Source: Sphingomonas sp. AP4-R1 (lineage in GTDB: Bacteria > Pseudomonadota > Alphaproteobacteria > Sphingomonadales > Sphingomonadaceae). Taken from it: 64,000 nucleotides of DNA. A model generated the notes under the pieces. The model worked only from the letters and a program-made list of their open reading frames with translations, had not been told where the DNA came from and searched no databases. A program made the position numbers and the translations under genes. Shown here piece by piece: positions 41,255 to 43,912 of this stretch. The DNA lies in assembly GCF_013113735.1 (NCBI RefSeq), contig NZ_CP053346.1, positions 3,114,001-3,178,000 on the forward strand. Reading direction: 5' to 3'. Positions within the stretch are counted from its first letter, which is position 1. Every line of letters starts with the position of its first letter.

Positions 41255-41311
41255 CTACTTCCGGCCGAACAACTTCTCGATGTCGGCGTGGCCGAGCTTC
41301 ACCAAGGTCGG
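41255..41311 (-). pseudogene. Displaced original 3' end of mutL
   Basis: Eighteen codons plus TAG encode [18 protein letters not shown] in GC-rich codons like the rest of the chromosome. They match the C-terminus of the intact MutL ([18 protein letters not shown]), whose own terminal codons are AT-rich. Upstream in the same frame (to 41446) the sequence is unrelated. The fragment is the remnant of the original gene end, now separated by 828 bp. Confidence 0.7.
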
Positions 41312-41312
41312 G
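41273..41312. repeat. Direct repeat, left copy (mutL attachment-like site)
   Basis: CTTCTCGATgTCGg ... TTCACCaAGGTCGGG. It is matched at the same internal spacing (25 bases between the two blocks) by the copy at 42101-42140. The two copies flank an 828-bp segment. Confidence 0.65.
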
Positions 41313-41390
41313 GCATGAAACACAATGGCGGCGTCTGGAATGGGTGGGGAGCGGTCCGACCGCTTTTCGCAGTCACGAGGGATTGCGTCG

Positions 41391-41666
41391 TTAGGGGCGG
41401 ATGGCCTTGTTGCCAATGAACCCGAGTTCAAGCTTCGGATGCGCAAGGAACCATTCCATCACACAGTTGAGGCGATGATCGCTGAAACTCGCCATCGGCA
41501 GTGCGACGACGGTAGCGCCGAAGAAAGCCTTTGTTACTGCCGCTTCATTGTATCCGCACTTACGGGCAGCTTCCGCAAGCTTCCCCAACGAACTCGCTGG
41601 GCCGCCAAACATCATTGGGTCCGAAACTGCTCCAGCCGTCGCGGCGAGAAACGCAAGCCAGATCAC
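41391..41666 (-). CDS. Small exported hypothetical protein in the mutL-linked segment
   Basis: A 91-residue protein from a GTG at 41666, with GGAGG 7 bases upstream. The N-terminus (MIWLAFLAATAGAVS) reads as a short signal peptide. The mature part has single cysteines at about residues 38 and 67. I do not recognise it. Its codons are less GC-rich than neighbours, consistent with foreign origin. Confidence 0.6.
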   Translation of the reverse strand: MIWLAFLAATAGAVSDPMMFGGPASSLGKLAEAARKCGYNEAAVTKAFFGATVVALPMASFSDHRLNCVMEWFLAHPKLELGFIGNKAIRP

Positions 41667-41741
41667 TCACCATCCTCCAACACAGCAGCTCATCGCTAGC
41701 GATGAACGAGCGGCTGCTTTCGAGCAAACAGAAAGGAAGAT

Positions 41742-41766
41742 CTAACGTCCGCTACTGGGGCGTTAG
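41742..41766. repeat. Short inverted repeat between the two insert genes
   Basis: CTAACG-TCC-...-GGG-CGTTAG, a 25-base hairpin overlapping the stop of the small membrane-protein gene. A CCGCTACTGGG motif inside it recurs near 42003. It probably terminates transcription. Confidence 0.4.
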
Positions 41767-41957
41767 CTACCGTTACGCGGCCACCGGCTTACCGCAACCA
41801 GCATGAGAAACGTTGAGGCGATGAAGGCTGCGCCAGACGCATAGACCAGCCAGACCAACACGAGGGCGTCAGACTTCTTGAATGCGATAGAAACACCGAA
41901 GCCGACGAGGCTCGCAAGTAGCATCAAACGTATCCACCAATCCAGTCCGCGCCGCAT
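41763..41957 (-). CDS. Small two-TM hypothetical protein in the mutL-linked segment
   Basis: A 64-residue membrane protein with two hydrophobic helices (about 8-26 and 32-57) and a basic C-terminus. GGGAG lies about 8 bases before the ATG. It has moderate GC, unlike flanking genes. No family recognised. With the exported protein it forms the whole cargo of the inserted segment. Confidence 0.6.
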   Translation of the reverse strand: MRRGLDWWIRLMLLASLVGFGVSIAFKKSDALVLVWLVYASGAAFIASTFLMLVAVSRWPRNGS

Positions 41958-42082
41958 ATCTTGCTCCCGATCTCAGGTGTTATGCTCCGTGATCGACACA
42001 CCCGCTACTGGGCGAAAGCGGTCGCTTGCCAAACCACGGTCGTTCGACCTTCTTGTATCTGACCGATGTTCAGGTAAGTTAT

Positions 42083-43912
42083 TCATTTTCTTCCAAAAAG
42101 CTTCTCGATATCGAGATTTGATAGTTTCACCCAGGTCGGGCGGCCGTGGTTGCACTGGCCGCTATGGGGCGTGACCTCCATTTCGCGGAGCAGGGCGTTC
42201 ATCTCCGCCACCGAGAGCTGGCGGCCGGCGCGGACGGAGCCGTGGCAGGCCATCGTCGCGGCGACGTGATCGAGGCGCTCCTTCAGCGACAGCGCCTCGT
42301 CATAGGCGGTGAGTTCGTCGGCCAGATCGGTGACGAGGCCCTGCGCGTCGCTCTTGCCGAGCAAAGCGGGGACGGCGCGGACGAGGACGGCGCGGGGGCC
42401 GAAGCGCTCCAGTTCGAGGCCCATTTCGGCCAGTTCGGGGATGCGCGCCTCCAGCCGGTCGCAGGCGGGCTCGTCCAGTTCGACCACTTCGGGCAGCAGC
42501 AGCGCCTGGCTGGCGACGCCGCCTTCGGCGACCGCGCGGCGCATCCGTTCGAGGACGAGGCGCTCGTGCGCGGCATGCTGGTCGACGAGGATCAGGCCGT
42601 CCTCGGCCTCCGCCACGATATAGGTGAGCGCGACCTGTCCGCGTGCCACGCCCAGCGGGTGGAGGATGGGCGAGGGCGGAGGCTCGATCGCGGATTCGGC
42701 GCGGGCGGCGGGGGCGAAATCGCGCGCGGCGTCGTTGACGGTCGACCAGAGCGGGTCGCTCGCGGGAACGGCATAAGATGTGGGGGGCGCTGTCGGGCTG
42801 AACAGCGAGCGGGCGGGTGTCGCCGCGCTGGAGGCCCACCCTCCGGCCCCCTCCCGCATGCGGGAGGGGGAGGTGTCCCCCGGCTGCCACAGGCCGAGCG
42901 CGCCGGCGGAAGGCTGCTGCGCGCTGCGATGGCCGGCCGAATCGAGCGCGGCGCGCAAGCCACCCACGATCAGGCCGCGCACCAGCGAAGGTTCGCGGAA
43001 GCGCACCTCCGTCTTGGCGGGGTGGACGTTCACGTCGACCTCGCTGGCGGGCACATCGAGGAACAGCGCCAGCACGGGATGGCGATCGCGCGCGAGCATC
43101 TCCTGATAGGCGCCGCGCACCGCGCCGATCAGCAGGCGATCCTTCACCGGGCGGCCGTTCACGAACAGATATTGGTGATCGGCCACGCCCCGATTGAAGG
43201 TAGGCAGACCGGCGACGCCGCCGAGGCGGATGCCCTCGCGTTCATGATCGACCGCGACCGAATTGCGGACCAGTTCGCGATCCGTGAGCGCGGCGACGCG
43301 CTCGGGCGCGCTCTCGCCCGGCTGGACGGCGAGCGTGCGGCGGCCGTCATGCTCCAGCGAGAAGCCGATCTCCGGCCGCGCCATGGCGAGGCGGCGGACC
43401 GCATCGAGGCAGGCGGCATATTCGGCGCGGGGGGAGCGCAGGAATTTCGCGCGCGCGGGCACGCGGCCGAACAGGGCCTCCACCTTCACGCGCGTGCCGG
43501 GCGGAAGGGCAGCGGGGCCTTCCTCGACCACGGCGCCATTGTCGACGGTGCGGCGCCAGCCCTCGGCGCCGCGCACGCGGCTCTCGATCGTGAGGCGGGC
43601 GACGCTGGCGATCGAGGGCAAGGCCTCGCCCCGGAAGCCGAGCGTGCCGACCGCCTCGATCGCGTCGTCGGGCAGCTTCGAGGTGGCGTGGCGCTCCAGC
43701 GCCAGCGCCATGTCGGCCGGGGCCATGCCGATGCCGTCGTCGGTGACTTCGAGTCCGTCGATGCCGCCCGCCCACAAGCGCACGGCGATGCGGGTCGCGC
43801 CCGCGTCGATCGCATTCTCGACCAGTTCTTTCAGCGCGCTGGCGGGGCGTTCCACCACCTCGCCTGCGGCGATCCTGTTGACCAGATGCTCGGGGAGTCG
43901 TCTTATTGACAC
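42083..43912 (-). CDS. mutL: DNA mismatch repair protein MutL
   Basis: Links MutS mismatch recognition to strand excision. It has 609 residues from a GTG (43912). The N-terminal GHKL ATPase shows [12 protein letters not shown] and [11 protein letters not shown] variable linker of about residues 330-430 contains a translated palindrome. The C-terminal endonuclease motif [12 protein letters not shown] shows it is a nicking-type MutL. The last 15 codons are AT-rich (AAA CTA TCA AAT ... AGA AAA) and differ from the GC-rich displaced end at 41255, so the gene's end has been replaced while the peptide is almost unchanged. Confidence 0.95.
42101..42140. repeat. Direct repeat, right copy (inside mutL 3' end)
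   Basis: CTTCTCGATaTCGa ... TTCACCcAGGTCGGG, within the last codons of intact mutL. The copy at 41273 has the same two blocks at the same spacing. The intervening bases differ (AT-rich here, GC-rich there). Confidence 0.65.
42847..42870. repeat. Perfect palindrome within the mutL linker
   Basis: CCCCCTCCCGCA and TGCGGGAGGGGG are 12-bp arms of a perfect 24-bp palindrome translated as part of [10 protein letters not shown]. It resembles the family 2 intergenic repeats and seems to have inserted into a tolerant linker. Confidence 0.65.

Follow-up and report, generated by a model that had tools for sequence, protein, structure and literature searches.

The window analyzed here is a stretch of 64,000 nucleotides from contig NZ_CP053346.1 of Sphingomonas sp. 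AP4-R1. On its minus strand lies a mutL gene whose frame, with the stop at 42083, stays open to an FGRK end that is supplied by an inserted element. A native-type, GC-rich mutL tail has been displaced to 41255-41303 on the same strand, 828 bp downstream of the present AT-rich end, and a repeat search of the window returned a direct repeat at exactly this spacing. The features of the locus are as follows.

42083..44002, minus strand: mutL (ORF with MutL_C, DNA_mis_repair and HATPase domains)
42123..42131, minus strand: attL join block GGTGAAACT (GGTGAARCT comparison)
42083..42131, minus strand: element-supplied AT-rich mutL tail, from join block to stop (sequence and cross-element comparison)
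41763..41957, minus strand: possible cargo gene 2, 64 aa, with hydrophobic stretches by eye (ORF)
41744..41762, minus strand: copy of a motif (CGCCCCAGTAGCGGACGTT) enriched in mutL elements, between the two cargo ORFs (pattern count)
41391..41666, minus strand: cargo gene 1, 91 aa, GTG start, hydrophobic N-terminus by eye (three database relatives at 66 to 69% identity)
41295..41303, minus strand: attR join block GGTGAAGCT, with the element arm CATGCCCCGACCTT before it (GGTGAARCT comparison)
41255..41303, minus strand: orphan tail, the original 3' end of the host mutL, now 828 bp away (mutL ends of relatives)

The initial annotation had described an AT-rich mutL end with a GC-rich orphan copy 828 bp downstream and a lower GC content in between. 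The sequence, the ORFs and the exact repeat spacing bore out the first of these points, and the GC content of the segment (0.52 to 0.64 in 200-base windows, versus 0.63 to 0.77 in most neighboring windows, with four windows outside the segment dipping to 0.57 to 0.60) bore out the second. Similarity between the repeats extends slightly to the left of the GGTGAARCT block (CCCGACCT), and the DNA before the orphan tail does not encode the HGRPTW stretch of MutL. Just past the displaced tail, at 41065-41243, there is also a GC-rich intergenic inverted repeat with 20-nt arms (80% complementary) that looks like a dispersed repeat.

Two small genes, one for an exported and one for a membrane protein, had also been proposed within the segment. 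Both ORFs are present on the mutL strand and are likely the cargo of the element, and the labels "exported" and "membrane" reflect hydrophobic stretches judged by eye. Gene 1 is backed by its three relatives, which cover 97 to 100% of its length, whereas the database search for relatives of gene 2 found none and gene 2 is therefore unproven. Further overlapping ORFs occur in the segment, the longest of which (124 aa) is on the plus strand at 41325-41699. No significant Pfam, PADLOC or NCBIfam family match was obtained for either cargo ORF, and a search of the genome contigs with two short peptide patterns returned no relative of gene 1. A viral match to gene 1 (L033, 30% over residues 16 to 71) was too weak to be considered. 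Likewise, a role of the cargo in immunity or phage defense was set aside, since the sole clear immunity domain in any of the mutL elements was a WapI domain (4e-30) in an element of the metagenome-assembled genome (MAG) Proteobacteria SKS3.bin69 that carries its own recombinase; an Imm32 match in the SKS3.bin69 cassette (0.0065) and a PADLOC match in Sphingobium cyanobacteriorum HBC34 (0.006) were too weak.

Origin of the two mutL tails

In six same-genus relatives, mutL itself ends in an orphan-type tail of the form (G/A), ten residues, (K/R), and no second tail was found in any of the six over the 4.7 to 8.2 kb scanned downstream of mutL. These genomes thus present the empty site, with a single native-type tail, and none of them had the arrangement that would have spoken against an insertion, namely an AT-rich mutL end with no insert and with the orphan fragment absent or unrelated to mutL. 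The orphan matches the native mutL end of the nearest relative (G002) at 91% identity over 56 bp, which excludes chance similarity. Moreover, when the window flanks were joined at the block, the restored end agreed with the six same-genus mutL ends at 53 to 60 of 66 bases, while the present mutL end agreed with them at only 39 to 49 of 66. Because the restored end fits the relatives better, mutL has kept its length with a borrowed tail while the native tail was displaced. Gene order past the join gives no further check in G002, where approximately 3 kb of other genes lie between mutL and a conserved MarR-GNAT gene.

Elements at the same position in other genomes

Nine elements were found at the same 9-bp block, GGTGAARCT, in eight genomes. 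Eight of these are small (400 to 1,188 bp) and too short for a large recombinase gene; the ninth measures 4.46 kb. A supplied tail, an insert and an orphan tail make up the elements of the window (828 bp), G019 (taken as Altericroceibacterium xinjiangense; 677 bp), G135 (1,151 bp), G408 (593 bp), Sphingobium sp. D43FB (1,188 bp), HBC34 (661 bp) and Sphingopyxis sp. LC363 (400 bp). The remaining small element, of 582 bp, is a second cassette in SKS3.bin69, where it lies behind the 4.46-kb element with displaced tails on both sides. Other cargo between the same repeats, which the initial annotation had suggested looking for, was found, with different contents at the same join.

These elements were recovered in three ways. 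A scan for second tails covered 120 distinct mutL ends from 129 loci, 115 of them with at least 1.4 kb downstream, and found one, in G019. The stretches downstream of mutL were mostly 8 to 12 kb long, and the locus sample was not random, 40 loci having been picked for a match to the orphan tail. The tail pattern missed even the native end in G013, G025, G039 and G057, and the G042 contig ends there. In other families of the order, 17 of 18 loci had a readable tail and none of the 17 had a second one. The elements of G135 and G408 were found through a search with the DNA of the window element itself. Finally, a scan of 84,980 species genomes for the displaced-tail pattern returned five loci, all at mutL: D43FB, Altericroceibacterium xinjiangense, SKS3.bin69 (with two displaced tails in tandem), LC363 and HBC34. 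We treat SKS3.bin69 as a sphingomonad on the basis of 73% identity between its MutL and that of the window. Since the pattern is narrow and by design unable to match the G135 tail, five loci is a lower bound. Matches to the element tail in three more genomes were rejected as further cases; there was no orphan after the AT-rich tails of G386 and G318, and the mutL tail was absent at the matched place in G424.

GGTGAARCT is present at both joins in all eight small elements, and in six of them a complete mutL end reappears once the flanks are joined. The two exceptions are G135, whose decayed orphan no longer has a stop after the tail, and the small SKS3.bin69 cassette, whose left flank is not mutL because it sits behind another element. 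The window and D43FB elements are 86% identical over 58 bp at one end. D43FB and HBC34 are alike at both ends, over 48 bp (87.5%) on one side and 87 bp (77%) on the other, with no BLAST match between. Among the eight small elements as a whole, BLAST matches were confined to the regions near the ends and to copies of a short motif, with nothing longer inside; LC363 had no BLAST match to the other seven. The first 18 bases of the LC363 supplied tail are, however, the same as those of the tail supplied by the recombinase-bearing SKS3.bin69 element (41 of 57 bases agree in all).

The supplied tails are AT-rich, with a mean GC of 0.41 versus 0.53 in 119 native tails. Among themselves they are less alike (mean pairwise identity of 64%, n = 9) than are the native tails of these genomes (71%, n = 8), which counts against one common tail origin. 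The two G019 tails agree at 85% over 40 bases, so that there the tail derived from outside cannot be told from the other. CTTTTT codons occurred in five of nine supplied tails versus one of 119 native tails, and TTA followed the stop in seven of nine versus 15 of 119, both signals having been chosen after inspection of the data. FGRK was retained in all nine supplied tails. Retention of FGRK fits selection for a working MutL end; the last MutL residues may have a role in the endonuclease site.

The short motif (CGACCCATTGCGGACATT or CGCCCCAGTAGCGGACGTT, up to four mismatches) was present in nine copies in six of the nine mutL elements (window, G019, G135, G408, D43FB and HBC34), before or after the cargo ORFs. 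This corresponds to 0.85 copies per kb of one strand, against a background of 27 copies in 1.74 Mb when both strands are counted (0.016 per kb). Because the pattern was derived from the same elements, this enrichment is biased upward. A reading of CGCCCCAGTAGCGGACGTT as an integron-like attC site was unsupported: the motif is scattered in the genome of the window, with 12 matches at up to three mismatches versus six for a reversed control, and nothing in four mutL loci scored above the Rfam gathering scores.

Candidate recombinases and competing explanations

The initial annotation had viewed the segment as a small element or remnant with no recombinase of its own. The comparison with relatives supports this view and adds that the segment belongs to a recurring set of tiny elements. 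The 828-bp segment cannot contain a recombinase gene of approximately 1.7 kb, and a domain scan found no recombinase domain in ORFs of the small elements (one ORF per element, two in the window). An element of this size would therefore have been moved in trans. The initial annotation had also suggested looking for a full element with an integrase, and a single element with a recombinase was found at mutL, in SKS3.bin69, where the enzyme is a large serine recombinase and not of the usual tyrosine type. This protein (565 aa, ORF L191:2987-4684) starts 45 bp after the mutL stop and has PF00239 and PF07508 over the cut-off and PF13408 below it. In the 4.46-kb element it is followed by a WapI-type immunity protein, a small resolvase and other genes, and then the displaced tail; the 582-bp cassette with a 127-aa ORF and the last tail come after this. 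The contig is a metagenome contig of low coverage (cov_2.51 in its title).

Together, these results place site-specific insertion into the 3' end of mutL close to demonstrated. Chance similarity or simple divergence of MutL is ruled out by the match of the orphan to the native ends of relatives and by the recurring join point. We consider it probable that the 828-bp segment is a non-autonomous, site-specifically integrated cassette, with a large serine recombinase as the most likely enzyme to have moved it in trans. Such an enzyme would join the attachment site of the cassette to the mutL 3' end at GGTGAARCT, one end of the element would replace the last 15 mutL codons and the stop while MutL kept its FGRK terminus, and the host's own tail would be pushed to the far side of the element. 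The recombinase would be supplied by a co-resident element or phage, and the best candidate is a member of the family of the large serine recombinase directly downstream of mutL in SKS3.bin69. We infer that the window cassette was moved by this recombinase or by a relative that shares its target, and that such mutL cassettes may still be mobile. The putative enzyme assignment rests on one locus, together with the common join block and the likeness of the LC363 tail. The cassette reading also draws on a viral contig (L032, described below) that carries an orphan mutL tail with the same core.

The SKS3-type recombinase family is compact. Among the best 7,999 candidates, 20 database proteins were 51 to 97% identical to the enzyme, one further match was partial, and beyond these identity fell to 27 to 33%. 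The relatives at 82 to 97% (P0005-P0011) are encoded on metagenome contigs. Relatives at 26 to 34% identity were present in 25 of 397 genomes of the family sample, and a profile of the SKS3-type family matched 19 of 396 genomes of the order sample at 1e-60. A mutL end was absent from the 1.5-kb flanks of 54 other large serine recombinase loci (50 distinct places), which include 12 of 19 and 15 of 20 matches from two of their source searches. The genome of the window encodes two other large serine recombinases, and no relative of the SKS3.bin69 enzyme was found in it at E <= 1e-10 among the best 3 of 15 candidates. At least one PF07508 match is present in each of the eight cassette genomes, but at mutL only in SKS3.bin69; the nearest others are approximately 8 to 9 kb (G408) and 19 kb (HBC34) downstream of mutL. 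The G408 gene (L067:10432-12051) encodes a large serine recombinase, and the genes after it resemble phage genes by eye. A viral contig (IMGVR_UViG_3300044735_000115, L238:1-2080) encodes a 590-aa large serine recombinase 51% identical to that of SKS3.bin69; it adjoins a gene that is pirin-like by eye, and the family therefore seems to change target.

An unlikely but still serious alternative is that a prophage or island once resided at mutL and lost all but its two ends and one or two genes. The window element, being without a recombinase, and the decayed G135 orphan would both suit such a history, and a phage link exists: a 22.9-kb viral contig from a virus collection (L032) begins with a displaced mutL tail and the same core, indicating that at least one phage-like element uses the site. 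Its arm differs from that of the small SKS3.bin69 cassette by two bases of a 23-base pattern, its ORFs look like tail and lysis genes by eye, PF00589 has no match on it, and the sequence seems to break off before the far end is reached. Pattern searches for more viral contigs with the same arms returned only L032 again or none. However, all eight small elements keep both joins and fall within one size class, two elements have common ends and unrelated interiors, and it is less likely that separate deletions would each have spared the two ends together with a small open frame. Nor was a two-tailed element of more than 4.5 kb seen, in downstream stretches of a length (mostly 8 to 12 kb) that would miss large prophages.

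That a phage or conjugative element mobilized the cassettes in trans with a tyrosine recombinase, in place of a large serine recombinase, appears quite improbable. Tyrosine integrases are the usual enzymes that rebuild the 3' ends of genes, and a short common block would be expected from them as well. The genome of the window has 18 PF00589 matches, none beside mutL; in D43FB one match is found on the mutL contig, approximately 6 kb upstream of the gene, and in G135 there is a weak match approximately 13 kb upstream of mutL. On the other hand, the mutL contigs of SKS3.bin69, HBC34 and LC363 gave no PF00589 match, and a profile from nine integrases of the window's genome, which may miss divergent integrases, had none in the mutL-downstream loci scanned. 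The sole recombinase gene directly at the site is of the serine type. Elsewhere in the genome of the window, at 4705966 and 4882397 of C1 (L073 and L074), two tyrosine recombinase genes with identical scores, both of 327 aa, lie 176 kb apart with more recombinase matches between them.

Homologous or illegitimate recombination that brought in a piece of a foreign mutL along with the genes behind it, or a tandem duplication of the mutL end followed by divergence, is very improbable: the tails are homologous, AT-rich mutL ends occur naturally in other sphingomonads (G386 and G318) and the G019 tails are as similar as noted above, but the HGRPTW codons found before the join are missing from the orphans (which in particular disfavors tandem duplication), similarity begins at the same block in nine elements, and the window interior had only short matches (23 to 71 bases) elsewhere in the 397-genome family sample (best two candidates per genome).

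Comparison with known systems and implications

With the block at both ends and the empty site in all six same-genus relatives over the DNA scanned, the window element fits the general non-autonomous, site-specific kind. The nearest known kind is the pseudo-SCC at staphylococcal rlmH. SCC elements sit at the 3' end of rlmH and form tandem arrays, and their Ccr enzymes are large serine recombinases. Elements of this kind are described as inserting at a single chromosomal gene, where short imperfect direct repeats flank them; full members encode serine recombinases, other members have no recombinase, and the sizes given are 18.2 kb for an SCC and 26.6 kb for a pseudo-SCC (PMC10581047). The sphingomonad elements are similar in their single-gene target, 3' position, short repeats, tandem arrangement, recombinase-less members and serine recombinase in the full member, and they differ in target (mutL, not rlmH), in their alphaproteobacterial host and in size (0.4 to 1.2 kb versus 18.2 and 26.6 kb). 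The mutL element also supplies approximately 15 codons unlike those of the host.

CIMEs, or cis-mobilizable remnants of integrative elements, are flanked by attL and attR and lack their own recombinase; they arise when conjugative elements undergo deletions, and they are larger. The mutL cassettes share the flanks and the lack of a recombinase, but their small size class and swapped interiors are outside this description. Integron gene cassettes are small, exchangeable mobile units of approximately 1 kb or less, often with genes of unknown function. The mutL cassettes resemble them as small exchangeable units of this size carrying small genes and differ in that their recombination site is the protein-coding mutL tail and in that no integrase was found beside the site in the loci examined (with our own tyrosine profile and, on further contigs, PF00589).

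The SpyCI chromosomal islands of Streptococcus pyogenes are likewise mobile elements that target mutL; they insert at the 5' end, and the cell alternates between wild type and mutator (PMC3430984). The sphingomonad elements, by contrast, rebuild the 3' end and leave the reading frame of mutL uninterrupted. Reliance on a second element has a precedent in PLE 1 of V. cholerae, which uses its own large serine recombinase together with a directionality factor supplied by a phage (PMC6002521). No description of elements at the 3' end of mutL in sphingomonads was found in paper titles and abstract openings.

Thus, several related bacteria have other tiny cassettes, with different contents, at the exact same spot of mutL. 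A wider reading, to which we would give somewhat less than even credence, is that sphingomonads possess an integron-like system in which cassettes of approximately 0.4 to 1.2 kb with one or two genes are captured successively at mutL, the working mutL 3' end serving as the recombination site and a dedicated large serine recombinase acting in trans from a rarer autonomous element or phage. If true, this would be a second natural platform for gene capture beside integrons, built on a serine recombinase and a coding gene as the landing site, and would account for a class of unexplained small genes downstream of mutL. It would also reveal which C-terminal MutL residues are required by selection, as the FGRK end of all nine elements suggests, and, for the engineering of Alphaproteobacteria, would provide a landing site and cassette format of very small size.
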